Shown: in pieces, positions 17,220-22,703 of the stretch | Layout of the letters: every line of letters begins with the position of its first letter | How positions within the stretch are numbered: position 1 is the stretch's first letter | IMG/VR virus record: IMGVR_UViG_3300045740_000152 | Coordinates: 1 to 26,068 of that record | Strand: one strand, 5' to 3' | Source of the DNA: a virus | Length of the DNA stretch: 26,068 nucleotides | Made by a program: the position numbers and the translations under genes | Notes under the pieces: generated by a model | Seen by the model: the letters and a program-made list of their open reading frames with translations, nothing else | Told to the model about the DNA's origin: nothing | The model's database searches: none

Positions 17220-18362
17220 TCAAACGATGGTGAAAGCAGTGGTAACAAAGTCCTTATTCAGGTTGGCAAAGCCAGCGTACAGCTGCCAAATCAGAATGAT
17301 AAAGCGGCTGAAGTCATCATTGTTATTGATGAGAACCTGAGCATTAGGACCACCAATGCCCACACCCACGGCCTGAGGACCGAAGAACAGTGCAGGAGGA
17401 GTGTCGTGAGAAACAGCACCAGCGCCGTCACCGATATCAACGGTGATGGTCTTGGAGGGGAAGTTAGTGGATTCGAAGAAACGCACACCTTCAAACACGA
17501 AGCCAGAAGGCATGGTGGGCTCGCCACCAACAAATTGAGCTTGACCGTACTGACCGCCGCCGTAGATAGCAGCGTTGGGGTTCATGCCGCTCATCAGTGG
17601 GTTACCAGCAGCAAAGCCGGGGTAACGAGCCACTTCACGGAAGCCCTGATCAGCACGCAGGTCCTTCATGAAAGAAGGATCAGCAATACAACGGTAGTAA
17701 CCGTCAGCAAACACGGGGACGTTACGCTTGCGGAGGCTCTTCACCACTTCAAGCAGGTCGGTCTTCACGTTGAACTTATAACGCTCAGAGGCATACTCAG
17801 TAGCGGTGTAAGCAGTCAGCGTGGTAGCGCCAGTCTTTGCTTTGTTGTTGGGATAGTAGTAACCACCCTGGGTGTCGGAGGACTGACCACGGGACTCGGA
17901 CTTGAACAGTTCGTCCAGGAACACACGGTCGCGCCAGCGGCGGTAGTCATCCAGCAGGGTCAGCGAACCGATGGACTGGTGGAACATGTTGAGGTTCCCG
18001 GTGTCCAGCAGGAGACGCTGAGCGGTCATCAGAGTCTCACGAGCAATCTTGAAGGTGCTCGGAAGGTTGGCGTTGTTCGGATCGGCAGGACCGGTGTACT
18101 CACGCAGAGACACCAGCACCTTGTCCTTAACGATGGACCGGCTGTTAGCAGTACCAATGGTTTGATCCTGGGTACGCTCACGGTTGGTCTTGGTACCAGG
18201 GTTACCCCAGAAGCGGTACCGGTCTAACTGAACCGTTTGGCCGGGCTGTTTGGTGAAGTCGTGGACGACAACAGGCTCGCAAGCCATTTCCACGATATAA
18301 GCTGGATGGGGGCGGTACAGCTCCGCACCCAACAGCTTGGGAAAGTCGTTATCAATAAACAT
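17220..18362 (-). CDS. Probable major capsid protein
   Basis: A 380-residue protein starting MFIDNDFPKLLGAELYRPHP. The call rests on context: it follows terminase, portal, scaffold-like and peptidase genes, has its own strong promoter and structured leader, and shows strongly C/G-ending codons. Its length fits an HK97-fold capsid protein, and the style (VVVHDFTKQPGQTVQLDRY; DDYRRWRDRVFLDELF; FADGYYRCIADPSFMKDLR; GFVFEGVRFFES) recalls N4 gp56-like capsid proteins, though I cannot confirm the fold. No Shine-Dalgarno precedes the ATG, and an in-frame TGA four codons upstream excludes a longer start. No N-terminal propeptide cleavage site is obvious. Confidence 0.8.
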   Translation of the reverse strand: MFIDNDFPKLLGAELYRPHPAYIVEMACEPVVVHDFTKQPGQTVQLDRYRFWGNPGTKTNRERTQDQTIGTANSRSIVKDKVLVSLREYTGPADPNNANLPSTFKIARETLMTAQRLLLDTGNLNMFHQSIGSLTLLDDYRRWRDRVFLDELFKSESRGQSSDTQGGYYYPNNKAKTGATTLTAYTATEYASERYKFNVKTDLLEVVKSLRKRNVPVFADGYYRCIADPSFMKDLRADQGFREVARYPGFAAGNPLMSGMNPNAAIYGGGQYGQAQFVGGEPTMPSGFVFEGVRFFESTNFPSKTITVDIGDGAGAVSHDTPPALFFGPQAVGVGIGGPNAQVLINNNDDFSRFIILIWQLYAGFANLNKDFVTTAFTIV

Positions 18363-18461
18363 GTTGGTTATTCAGCGTAGTTTTAGCTGACACCGGAGAT
18401 CTGGAGAGATCCCTGACTTGTGGCAAAGAGCCACGGTAAATCTGGGAACTTCCGCCCCATT
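18363..18461 (-). promoter_or_regulatory. Structured 5-prime leader of the capsid message
   Basis: From the predicted start near 18461 to the ATG at 18362 the leader has two simple hairpins: GTGGC-TCTTT-GCCAC (18420-18434) and a seven-pair stem GGGATCT/AGATCTC around CTCC (18396-18413). There is no ribosome site near the ATG. The structures may stabilise the message or guide initiation; this is inference. Confidence 0.5.
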
Positions 18462-18467
18462 AATAAA

Positions 18468-18476
18468 ATTATAGCA
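18468..18476 (-). promoter_or_regulatory. Consensus extended -10 promoter of the capsid gene
   Basis: The minus strand reads TGCTATAAT, an exact TG-n-TATAAT extended -10 element, about 105 bases ahead of the capsid ATG and within the largest gap between genes. The -35 region is poor, as such promoters allow. It lies outside any coding frame, just after the metallopeptidase stop. Confidence 0.72.
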
Positions 18477-18496
18477 ATACTTACTTATGTGCTTTA

Positions 18497-19165
18497 TTAA
18501 TTTTGTCCCATTTGCTGGACAAAAGAACGTAAAAACCTACCTACTCCTAGCCCACCAAGAGCTGCAGCAGCTGGAGCTATTACATAACCAGCGGTTTGGA
18601 ACGCGCCAGGGGCAGCCGAAACAGGATACCCAGCTTGATTCACAAGGTTAGTTCCACGGCGACTGGCTTCAATTTCAGAGATGATGCGACCACTGTTATT
18701 GAGGTAGTTCATCCCTAAAGCAAGGGATGCAGCACGCCTAGCAGAGGGAACAGCAGCACTAACGCCAACAGTAGCTAATCCCATGACGTTGGGATTAACG
18801 CCACCATAAGTATGACGTTGAATCCAATCAAGGGGTCCGCCTAAATCTTTAATTGACTGGTGACCTAATTCATGGCCAAGAGTGAATTTGCTAGCAGCAT
18901 ACTGATTTAAGGAGATTGTTTTTTCTCCCGTTCTTTTACTCCTTCCAAATGGATCGGTATTACTAACAATCTGAGGAGTTACGCCTGTTTGTTTTGCATA
19001 TTCTCCGACAATCTGACTAAGTGCTGGCTGCTCAAGTGCTGGACCAGTTTCTTGCATTCCGCGCTGCTGATACTGTTTTACAGCGCCACGTTGTAGAGCA
19101 CGGGCACCAGCCATACCTGCTAATGCAAGTCCGCTTTGTAATGCAGTCTTTTCAGCCTGGTTCAC
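18497..19165 (-). CDS. HExxH zinc metallopeptidase, candidate head-maturation protease
   Basis: A 222-residue protein. FTLGHELGHQS (His98, Glu99, His102) is a textbook HExxH zinc site. About 60 residues later SEIEASRRGTNLVNQAGY resembles the E-x-x-AD...G...AG line of M48/HtpX-type peptidases, which would make Glu164 the third zinc ligand, with Ser168 in place of the usual Asp. Gly/Ala-rich hydrophobic stretches at 10-24, 127-153 and 190-211 could enter a membrane or pack as helices. The start is GTG overlapping the preceding stop (GTGA). The place between scaffold-like and capsid genes is where phages keep the prohead protease, normally a serine peptidase, so a maturation role is an inference. 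Confidence 0.78.
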   Translation of the reverse strand: MNQAEKTALQSGLALAGMAGARALQRGAVKQYQQRGMQETGPALEQPALSQIVGEYAKQTGVTPQIVSNTDPFGRSKRTGEKTISLNQYAASKFTLGHELGHQSIKDLGGPLDWIQRHTYGGVNPNVMGLATVGVSAAVPSARRAASLALGMNYLNNSGRIISEIEASRRGTNLVNQAGYPVSAAPGAFQTAGYVIAPAAAALGGLGVGRFLRSFVQQMGQN

Positions 19166-19365
19166 TCGGGATCAAAGTAAGGTTCAACATCGTGGTAACC
19201 AGCAGAGCGGTTCCAGTAGTTGTAACTATTGGGAGGCAGTGGACCAATCCGCTCGTACGGGTTGTAGTCCATCGGTTGAAGAGTTGGCATCTCAGAGCGA
19301 ATCTCAGGAATTAACTGCTCTGTATAGGCTTTTAATTGTTGTTTTGCTTTGTCAGATTTAGACAT
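19162..19365 (-). CDS. 67-residue protein coupled to the metallopeptidase
   Basis: A small protein starting MSKSDKAKQQLKAYTEQLIP. The first 25 residues form a charged helix; the rest is Pro/Tyr/Asn-rich (LQPMDYNPYERIGPLPPNSY, then YWNRSAGYHDVEPYFDPE) and likely extended. The ATG at 19365 overlaps the preceding stop (TGATG), and an in-frame GTG directly before it is less likely. The stop overlaps the peptidase GTG. I recognise no family. The tight coupling on both sides suggests it works with the peptidase or the 185-residue protein, for example as a short virion or assembly peptide. Confidence 0.65.
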   Translation of the reverse strand: MSKSDKAKQQLKAYTEQLIPEIRSEMPTLQPMDYNPYERIGPLPPNSYNYWNRSAGYHDVEPYFDPE

Positions 19366-19922
19366 CACGATTCAACCTCGGGTCCGTTGTTATAAATAGG
19401 CTCGGGTCCCATTGCTGCACGAAGCAAACGTTGACGTTCTTGCGCAGCTTTCACATCGTAAGAAAGGCGCATTTGTTGAATACCTAATGGAGAACCCGCT
19501 TGGTTTAACGCAATATAACTTGTTTGTAAATCGGAAGGCATTACATTACCTCCTACTTGTCCTGGTTGAGAAGCAACACGTCCACGAGGGTTAGTTGCTT
19601 GATATGCAATTAAAGAATTAATACCTGCATTAGCACCCATGCCGCCAACAAAAGCTCCGGTCATAGCAGCACCAGCAGCGGCAAGACCTAAATCACGTTT
19701 TTTAATTCCGTCCTTCATTCCAGCAGAGGCACCAAATTGCTTTGCTTGATTACCAATATTTTGTAAAAACTGTCCTACTTTTTGTCCAACACCACTACCG
19801 GCAGACTCTGCAGCTTGTGCACCAGCTTGTGCAATTTGTGCACCTTTTTGTTCAATTCCACGTGCAATGCCACCACCTAAATAGGCAGCTGCAGTACGCG
19901 CAGATTCAGGAAGCATTGCCAT
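19365..19922 (-). CDS. Gly/Ala-rich protein with a hydrophobic segment
   Basis: A 185-residue protein. Residues 1-70 are an Ala/Gln-rich helical region (GIEQKGAQIAQAGAQAAESA). Residues 77-107 are hydrophobic and small-residue rich (LGLAAAGAAMTGAFVGGMGA), able to span a membrane. The remainder is polar, with RLSYDVKAAQERQRLLRAAM near the end. It has no enzymatic motif. The composition recalls minor head or ejection proteins that associate with membranes, and a similar hydrophobic style is seen in the metallopeptidase two genes on. An intrinsic terminator ends only about 10 bases before its ATG, so expression of this gene and the next two depends on read-through. Confidence 0.68.
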   Translation of the reverse strand: MAMLPESARTAAAYLGGGIARGIEQKGAQIAQAGAQAAESAGSGVGQKVGQFLQNIGNQAKQFGASAGMKDGIKKRDLGLAAAGAAMTGAFVGGMGANAGINSLIAYQATNPRGRVASQPGQVGGNVMPSDLQTSYIALNQAGSPLGIQQMRLSYDVKAAQERQRLLRAAMGPEPIYNNGPEVES

Positions 19923-19987: not shown

Positions 19988-20971
19988 TCAGTCCATTACC
20001 AGGAGTTTCTGGCGGAACACACCGGGATTGCGCTGAGCCTGTGACAGGTAACGCCAAGCATTTGCAGGATCGCGTTCAGCCACATTGCCAAAGTTATCCC
20101 AGAAGTTCTGAGAGTCCATATCAAACTGCGGGCTTGGAGGAACTGGCATACTGGCTCGCTCCAGGGAAGGAGAATAGTATTCCTGTTCTGGATAAGCTTG
20201 CTGCTGCTCTTCATAACCATAGCCGTAAGCAGGTTGTTCATCCTGCACTGGGTATGGACCGTTTTCACCAAAGAACTCACAGGTGTAGTCAGCCAGTACG
20301 TCAGGATCGGTCAGGATCTTTTCGTAAGCTTGATGTTCTTGTGCAAGTTCTTCCAGGAGTTGAACAGCTTCAGTCAACTGTTCGTAACGAGCAATCAGTG
20401 CATCTTCAACAGTGCACGCATAGTCATTCAGAACAGCAGGAGCATCGGCACCAAAGTGGTCAATGACCTCAAGACTTTGAGGACTTACCCCGTTTGCTAG
20501 AAGTTGTTGTGTTGTTATTTCCTGCGATGTTTGGGAAAAGCTGGGCGAGTAACCCTGGCTGGACGGATAAATCGGGGCTGCCGAATTGTTGCTGAACAGT
20601 CCGGTCTGTTGGGAACTGAAGCTGGCCGGGTCGATTCCTTGTGTCGCTGCGGACTGTTGACCCTGGAACGGGAATTGAACTGGTGAACTCAGGAGCGACA
20701 CTACCCGGTTGAATGCCTCCTTGTACGGGTTCTCCGCTGAAGGTTGGGACGGCTGGTACGACTGGATAGGGGCGTAAGGTGCCGCCGAGATCTGTGCCTG
20801 CATCTGGGGTGCCGGCGCCTGGGCTGCTTGGTAAGGTGCCACCCACTGGCTGGTTGTTGCTACCGGAGCTTGCGCTGCCGTCTGTTGTGCTACCGGCGCC
20901 GCGTAGCTGCTCGGCGGGGTCGAATACTGTTGGGGTACCGATTGGATCGGCGCTGCGGTATCGGCCTGCAT
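19988..20971 (-). CDS. Probable capsid scaffold, overlapping the portal gene
   Basis: A 327-residue protein. Residues 1-160 are Pro/Gln/Ala/Ser-rich and probably disordered; 186-222 form an acidic helix (EDALIARYEQLTEAVQLLEE); 240-265 is Tyr/Gln/Glu-rich; and the C-terminus (SQNFWDNFGNVAERDPANAW to FRQKLLVMD) is helical and ends in charged residues. Acidic helix plus disordered arms, directly after the portal, is typical of scaffolds, whose C-terminus often binds capsid protein; no sequence family was recognised. AGAGGTAA (20975-20982) stands three bases before the ATG and supports the start, so its first 167 codons overlap the end of the portal gene in another frame. Confidence 0.72.
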   Translation of the reverse strand: MQADTAAPIQSVPQQYSTPPSSYAAPVAQQTAAQAPVATTSQWVAPYQAAQAPAPQMQAQISAAPYAPIQSYQPSQPSAENPYKEAFNRVVSLLSSPVQFPFQGQQSAATQGIDPASFSSQQTGLFSNNSAAPIYPSSQGYSPSFSQTSQEITTQQLLANGVSPQSLEVIDHFGADAPAVLNDYACTVEDALIARYEQLTEAVQLLEELAQEHQAYEKILTDPDVLADYTCEFFGENGPYPVQDEQPAYGYGYEEQQQAYPEQEYYSPSLERASMPVPPSPQFDMDSQNFWDNFGNVAERDPANAWRYLSQAQRNPGVFRQKLLVMD

Positions 20972-22703
20972 AAGTTACCTCTTTCTGGAGACTTTCGAGT
21001 GTTCTGTAAAGGAATGGCGTCAGATCAAGACGCGGATCAGCTGCCAGGGGGAGATCTGGGCGCTGGGGATGAGGTGTGCGCATCTCTTGATTAATGAGAT
21101 CAAGGAATGATGCATACGCTCGTTGCACTTGGCCGACCATCCGGAATGGATAACCAGAGAGCATTTCTGCAACCTCGTCATCCGTTTTGGATGGGAACAA
21201 GTACTTAAGTGCCTCAATACTATCAACACCCAATTCTTGTAGGTTACGGGTAAAGATAGATTGGTTAACTTTGTCCTGAGGAGTGTCTTCATAGACAGGA
21301 CCCATCCAGCGCCAAAGCACTGTACGGTCACCATCTGGAGCAAGACCAATTACACCATCAGGAATCTCTTTGGTTTCAAAAGCTTTGTCTAAAGCTTTAT
21401 CTAAACCTTTCTCATACTTTTCTTTTGCTTTGCGGTGCTTTTCTAGTGCTGCTTCATCTGCATTCTCAGGCAATATCGGATATGTTAACCCGGATGCAAC
21501 TGCTAATGATTTACGGAAGAGTTGTTCTTCCTGGTAGATCATCAGCTCAAAGCAACGACAAATGCCGTAGGTGTAAAGCTGCAGACACTTCTTCTTTGCT
21601 GTGGCGCTAACGCGTCCATAAGCAGACTTAATTTCTGTAGCAGTAACGTTGGTAATTGAAAGGTCATCAATACCACCAAGCGCCAAGCGAATTTCAGAAC
21701 GCAGCTGATCCACATAACGGGACTGGTCTGTGCTGATAGCGTTAGGCGTAATGAAACCAACGCGATCTGTTGGCTCCAGGTTGGCAATCACCCTTGGTAC
21801 ACGAAGGCCGCCACCAGGGAGTCCGATGTACCCGGCTTGCTGCCGCTCAGTTGGATCTTGTTTAAAGGTCGAACTGGATAAGGAGAACTCAGATTGGAAA
21901 CCAGATTGGCTTGCAATACTTGGACGTTGAACAGCACCATCACGTGCTGTTTCAACAATGTCATGTTTTGGACGAGACGACAGCAGTGTTGGATTACCAA
22001 AGAACGACAGGTTTGCCCTGATGTTCTTTACCATCTCATCGTGAGCAATAATCTGATTGGCTAGCCATTCAAATTCACCGCTACCATCAGTACCAAAAGC
22101 ATCGGGATTATTAAGAACCTCTACGCAAGGAATAAAGCCAAGGGTATTTTCAAGTACCTTATTATCGTTAAAGTTAAGTGTTGCCTCCAGGGAATCAAAC
22201 GATAATTCTTGTTCGCTGTGGAGTTCGTGAATCTCACTTGGCGTGATACGCAGCCGCACATAACGCTTATCAGTAACAAGGCCCACGCCACCAAAGCCAC
22301 GGCTGGATTTAACCTTGTATGCGTAGATAATGATGACCTCTTCTAGATCACCGTCTGGGGAATAATACGTACGGTAAGCATCTTTATCAAACCAATACAA
22401 ACGATATGTTTTCTTTGTTGGCCTGATATAAAACAGTCCTTTACCGTAAGATAAGAACCGATCCCAAATAGAATCCAATCGTGCATCTAAACGATTGAAT
22501 TTAATAACTTGTTGGATAAAATCAAAACGCTGTGTTCCAAAATTATCTTGGTTGGGATAGAACTCAACGCCCTGCCGGATCCCAAACATTTTCATTTGGG
22601 AAAGATGGGCATTAATGAGCATCGTGTCTGCTGTGCCCGTGGACTCACGGTTCACAACAGCTTTGAGCATTCCTTCTAAAATGGAGTGGCTCTGGGTGCT
22701 CAT
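20469..22703 (-). CDS. Portal protein with long overlapping C-terminal tail
   Basis: A 744-residue protein. The N-terminal region (FDFIQQVIKFNRLDARLDSI, then FLSYGKGLFYIRP, then a beta-rich wing to about 210) and the helical region after 330 (SRYVDQLRSEIRLALGG, TATEIKSAYGRVSATAKKK) have the layout of SPP1-type portals: twelve subunits form the DNA channel at one capsid vertex and bind terminase. The core ends near 575. The last 167 residues are Gly/Ser/Pro/Thr-rich, finish with basic SSKRGKSSKS, and are read from DNA that also encodes the scaffold start. No Shine-Dalgarno is seen. The gene follows the AbrB-like protein and terminase, a standard packaging order. Confidence 0.88.
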   Translation of the reverse strand: MSTQSHSILEGMLKAVVNRESTGTADTMLINAHLSQMKMFGIRQGVEFYPNQDNFGTQRFDFIQQVIKFNRLDARLDSIWDRFLSYGKGLFYIRPTKKTYRLYWFDKDAYRTYYSPDGDLEEVIIIYAYKVKSSRGFGGVGLVTDKRYVRLRITPSEIHELHSEQELSFDSLEATLNFNDNKVLENTLGFIPCVEVLNNPDAFGTDGSGEFEWLANQIIAHDEMVKNIRANLSFFGNPTLLSSRPKHDIVETARDGAVQRPSIASQSGFQSEFSLSSSTFKQDPTERQQAGYIGLPGGGLRVPRVIANLEPTDRVGFITPNAISTDQSRYVDQLRSEIRLALGGIDDLSITNVTATEIKSAYGRVSATAKKKCLQLYTYGICRCFELMIYQEEQLFRKSLAVASGLTYPILPENADEAALEKHRKAKEKYEKGLDKALDKAFETKEIPDGVIGLAPDGDRTVLWRWMGPVYEDTPQDKVNQSIFTRNLQELGVDSIEALKYLFPSKTDDEVAEMLSGYPFRMVGQVQRAYASFLDLINQEMRTPHPQRPDLPLAADPRLDLTPFLYRTLESLQKEVTYAGRYRSADPIGTPTVFDPAEQLRGAGSTTDGSASSGSNNQPVGGTLPSSPGAGTPDAGTDLGGTLRPYPVVPAVPTFSGEPVQGGIQPGSVAPEFTSSIPVPGSTVRSDTRNRPGQLQFPTDRTVQQQFGSPDLSVQPGLLAQLFPNIAGNNNTTTSSKRGKSSKS

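Follow-up and report, generated by a model that had tools for sequence, protein, structure and literature searches.

A probable M48-like zinc metalloprotease gene, present or absent beside the head genes of S-EIV1-type cyanophages

The window, i.e. the whole stretch of DNA analysed here, is the IMG/VR virus record IMGVR_UViG_3300045740_000152, of 26,068 nucleotides. Its capsid protein shares 70% identity with its counterpart in Synechococcus phage S-EIV1, and the window therefore comes from an S-EIV1-type cyanophage. The minus-strand order is terminase large subunit, a 61-aa ORF that on reading its sequence we take to be AbrB-like, portal, scaffold-like ORF, g185, g68, protease gene and capsid, so that two genes (of 185 and 68 codons) lie between the scaffold-like ORF and the HExxH gene. 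The features discussed below are:

18497..19165, minus strand: gene for the probable M48-like zinc metallopeptidase (222 aa, GTG start), described by its ORF, family alignment, fold and dN/dS
18860..18874, minus strand: HELGH motif (residues 98-102), putatively two zinc ligands and the catalytic Glu
18653..18676, minus strand: EIEASRRG motif (residues 164-171), E164 being the probable third zinc ligand
19162..19368, minus strand: g68, a 68-aa gene directly upstream of the protease gene (ORF; homologues in carriers)
19365..19922, minus strand: g185, a 185-aa Gly/Ala-rich gene (ORF, comparison with relatives) whose product is possibly an inner virion protein
17220..18362, minus strand: major capsid protein gene of S-EIV1 type (phrog_1357 major head protein, E 9.6e-17)
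18363..18496, minus strand: conserved leader of the capsid gene, containing an extended -10 box (TGCTATAAT, 18468-18476) followed by hairpins
19988..20971, minus strand: scaffold-like ORF, conserved in relatives, overlapping the end of the portal gene in another frame
20469..22703, minus strand: portal protein gene (phrog_64 and phrog_104 portal matches)

The start of the scaffold-like ORF lies inside the 3' part of the portal gene, with an overlap of ~500 nt, in the window and in relatives.

The original prediction placed an HExxH protein at 18497-19165, without naming a strand, and numbered its zinc ligands His98, His102 and Glu164. The ORF is real, lies on the minus strand and encodes 222 residues, and the numbering is correct: residue 98 is the first of HELGH, residue 164 the first of EIEASRRG. 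When the protein is shuffled, an HExxH arises by chance in 0.08% of cases. Relatives drawn from IMG/VR viral contigs gave a 16-member family alignment, with identities as low as 22%, in which H98, E99, L100, G101, H102, E164 and A167 are among the residues invariant in 16/16. The gene is under purifying selection, with dN/dS of 0.09-0.20 against seven relatives. By M48 chemistry, H98, H102 and E164 would bind zinc and E99 would activate water for peptide cleavage. The downstream motif differs from the E-x-x-A-D of M48: it has the E-x-x-A and lacks the D, the next residue being Ser or Thr in most members and Asn in L151. A tether through hydrophobic stretches, also proposed, finds little backing: over 19 residues the Kyte-Doolittle mean of the window protein is 1.43 at best, and peaks across the family reach at most 1.2-1.6, so membrane insertion is not established and a membrane location is a guess.

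The AlphaFold model of the 222-aa protein (15 input sequences), a check suggested with the original prediction, is a confident fold (pLDDT 89.3, pTM 0.82) with both motifs in helices, HELGH within helix 93-108 and E164 within helix 142-177. Foldseek gave no match at E<=0.001 against solved and viral structures. With a second structure aligner, the top solved structures were mostly zincins: BepA (M48; Z 7.0 over 103 residues, rmsd 3.2), IrrE/PprI (6.8 and 6.7), ERAP1 (6.3) and the putative Zn-dependent peptidase 3c37 (5.6), where a Z under 8 is not decisive and can reflect a common arrangement of elements. Against an Escherichia coli BepA/HtpX/LoiP profile, hhalign gave a probability of 82% with both zinc motifs aligned, HELGH pairing with HEISH and SEIEASRRGTNLVNQAGY with NEQEADRIGIQVLQRSGF, and E164 falling on E201 of BepA. 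Single sequences gave BepA 52% and LoiP 34%, both with the two motifs, and HtpX 5% with HExxH alone. Among the controls, ArdC reached 28% over 12 columns at HExxH only, while E. coli YggI (a SprT-like protein), FtsH and the capsid protein stayed under 1%, with no match.

Scans of the protease against Pfam, PHROGs, NCBIfam and PADLOC gave no confident family. For Pfam M48 (PF01435) the cut-off was not reached: the window protein had no match and 3/16 members matched weakly, at best with E 0.023. PADLOC matched CapP weakly (E 0.024), and there is a weak sequence resemblance to IrrE/PprI. The EIEASRRG motif resembles an 'ExxASRR' of YugP, but kinship with YugP (Zn_peptidase_2, PF04298) was not supported; in carrier genomes PF04298 had no match to the protease gene at E up to 10 and found only an ArdC-like HExxH protein. 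No relatives were found in bacterial genomes by a pattern-based scan, nor in named phages. The alignment of both motifs with BepA/LoiP and the invariant site (16/16) agree with the predicted class: the protein is probably a gluzincin, a zinc metallopeptidase similar to M48. M48-like is the best name for it; the Asp of E-x-x-A-D and a Pfam match above cut-off, two defining M48 features, are absent. Judged by sequence comparison, the family is phage-only, M48-like and without a Pfam model.

Scaffold-to-capsid intervals were gathered from relatives found via the protease or the capsid protein. This gave 84 distinct intervals, 32 with the protease gene and 52 without, whose capsid proteins are 88-100% identical (70% for S-EIV1); the sampling was non-random, so the 32/52 ratio is not a frequency. 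A profile search agrees, matching 32/32 of the present and 0/52 of the absent intervals. Leaving L151-L153 out of the profile does not prevent it from recovering all three at 1e-21 or better, and absence from the 52 intervals is therefore not a failure of sensitivity. The gene is likewise absent from the complete S-EIV1 genome (79 kb, whole-record search), from 57 S-EIV1-proper loci each with more than 1.5 kb upstream, and from contigs of 77.7, 67.4, 62.8, 62.0, 59.8, 58.5, 55.3 and 47.0 kb, although contigs can be incomplete. Non-carriers whose capsid proteins are 88-95% identical keep the same portal-scaffold-capsid order, and small ORFs resembling g68 occupy the same place in them. In one locus (L083) a different 198-aa gene sits at the protease slot, 734-137 bases before the capsid gene; its product is apparently anchored in the membrane by its N terminus.

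A portal tree made by a quick method requires two changes of the presence label. One group holds 22 carriers, with the gene present in 22/22 rows; the L151 carrier is a separate case, beside the non-carriers L041 and L089. The protease gene diverges much faster than the portal and capsid genes, and g185 and g68 diverge fast as well.

With two exceptions, every carrier has the gene in the same position beside the head genes. (i) In L152 it precedes the g185-like gene. (ii) G028 has a 92% identical capsid protein; its sole copy of the protease gene lies at 9.7-10.4 kb and its capsid gene at 59.9-61.1 kb, one relocated case ~50 kb away. This copy is in the early region, not far from an ArdC-like gene, flanked by genes that on reading we take to be deaminase-like and DNA-polymerase-like. 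Elsewhere (L133) the scaffold-to-capsid interval holds two tandem, diverged family members, both with HELGH. A separate HExxH protein of about 315-338 aa was seen in early regions (L108 892-1839 in G001; L153 10789-11805 in G028), with similar matches in G004 and G005; we presume it to be ArdC-like and its neighbour ThyX-like from reading of the sequences.

The g68 stop and the protease start share 4 nt in the window, as they do in 14/32 listed carriers; the other listed carriers have spacings of -1 to 43 nt. Between the protease and capsid genes stands the leader of about 130 nt with its TGCTATAAT box, which also precedes the capsid gene in non-carriers and whose hairpins show compensatory change at 6/18 predicted pairs (15 sequences). 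Rfam had no family matching the window, leader included. The leader resembles a promoter belonging to the capsid gene itself, with the protease gene upstream of it; this reading is based on its conservation and on the match to an extended -10 box, because it was not among the promoters listed by a generic scan.

The original prediction was that a metal-dependent enzyme may mature the head in this phage. The enzyme class survives and the role finds no support, in view of the 52 intervals without the gene and the relocated and duplicated copies. The position next to scaffold and capsid genes is that of a head-maturation protease; conservation together with the capsid protein, expected of one, was not found (32 present, 52 absent). 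Co-occurrence with the same capsid family, offered as a check, failed in 52/84 intervals beside nearly identical capsid genes, which goes beyond the loss of HExxH named at the outset as telling against the idea, since the whole gene is missing. Most close relatives build a near-identical capsid without the gene, so it is most likely an optional, lineage-specific enzyme and not the head-maturation protease. T7- and P22-type heads mature without a recognisable protease, and our results suggest that S-EIV1-type heads do too; on the simplest reading, the S-EIV1-type phage group would need no such head protease.

The explanation that we favour, with confidence slightly above even, is a catalytically competent M48-like zinc metalloprotease, encoded by an accessory gene of one S-EIV1-type cyanophage lineage, with a host-directed or entry role. 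Its accessory status is well supported. The weaker half is the host-directed role: the protease would perhaps be synthesised late, at the same time as the head proteins or shortly ahead of them, and its target might be a host protein or a step of entry, possibly at a membrane, and not the capsid or scaffold. A survey of jumbo phages read patchy, variable-copy zincins as host-directed (PMC7824862), and by its reasoning the patchy presence, fast divergence, tandem duplication and second location fit a host-directed or entry role. The constancy of the gene in its main clade, which a lineage-specific virion role predicts, and its constant position beside the head genes count against a host-directed accessory reading.

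The main rival to the host-directed role, which we rate as unlikely, is a lineage-specific protease that would process the phage's own minor virion proteins (for example g185, g68 or inner ejection proteins) and not the capsid protein. The gene directly follows g185 and g68, with the 4-nt overlap, is always present in its main clade, and shares their quick divergence; against this, g185-like and g68-like small genes are also present in relatives without the protease, and the G028 copy is 50 kb away. Unlikely as well is a form in which, in one lineage, the enzyme would be packaged in the head with its Gly/Ala-rich neighbours, trimming them or being ejected to cut a cyanobacterial envelope protein; our searches gave no example of a virion-borne M48-like protease as a phage effector.

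It is distinctly improbable that the gene encodes a prohead protease for this clade only, the form closest to the original prediction, in which a metal-dependent enzyme would take the place of the usual serine one. It would account for the place between scaffold and capsid genes, and a Spartan-like metalloprotease has been proposed for a prohead role in Vibrio phage XM1 (PMC10457771). The claim that the window lacks a serine prohead protease held up, with none among ten of its proteins, and S78, S77, S14 and S49 profiles had matches in 0/9 whole records of carriers and non-carriers (S77 without a strong positive control). Serine enzymes are thus missing from the sampled non-carriers too, and an absence common to both groups does not mark this enzyme as a replacement. 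Besides the 52 intervals that have these head genes without the protease, and the relocated and duplicated copies, no column of the capsid alignment tells 26 carriers apart from 51 non-carriers, and over its first 70 residues the capsid protein hardly differs between the two groups. A capsid structure model, seeking a cleavable N-terminal arm from an alignment of the window and loci, had pLDDT 32 and was not used as evidence. Least probable is a protease like IrrE/ImmA or ArdC, serving counter-defence or regulation inside the host cell, which has IrrE/PprI among the best structural matches (and weakly in sequence) and the early-region G028 copy near an ArdC-like gene in its favour, and against it a profile alignment that spans the M48 E-x-x-A motif but only the HExxH of ArdC, the usual location among head genes, and the weakness of the CapP match.

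Under the preferred explanation, an accessory M48-like protease, a widespread group of cyanophages loses an attractive annotation that lacks support, that of a metal-dependent prohead protease. A phage-only family of M48-like proteases is defined as well, which evolves fast and which some phages carry and others lack although their capsids are nearly identical; a comparison of carriers with non-carriers can therefore test the benefit of the gene directly.

Several known systems resemble this one in part. Serine prohead proteases (S14, S49, S77, S78) share the gene position near scaffold and capsid genes, whereas the phage protein has no serine-protease homology and is not conserved with the capsid gene. 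In the literature on metal-dependent head proteases we found a sole proposal, that for Vibrio phage XM1, whose gp46 is likewise a metalloprotease proposed for a head role in a tailed phage (PMC10457771); gp46 is of SprT/Spartan type, unlike the S-EIV1-type family, which does not match SprT-like YggI, and the XM1 role is itself a proposal. Jumbo phages also encode zincins, some patchy and read as host-directed, others conserved and read as maturation enzymes; by family description these differ from ours, being SprT-like, ArdC-like and uncharacterised group-1 zincins (PMC7824862). The closest likeness is to the M48 proteins BepA/YfgC and LoiP of E. coli. The phage protein differs from these in having Ser/Thr for the Asp of E-x-x-A-D, in lacking a TPR domain and carrying extra Gly/Ala-rich N- and C-terminal helices, and in belonging to a family with phage members only and a weak Pfam M48 match (best E 0.023). 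It shares with them the HExxH, followed in BepA and the phage protein by E-x-x-A about 61-62 residues on, and a similar continuation (ADRIGIQVLQRSGF / ASRRGTNLVNQAGY), and BepA is its best match among solved structures.
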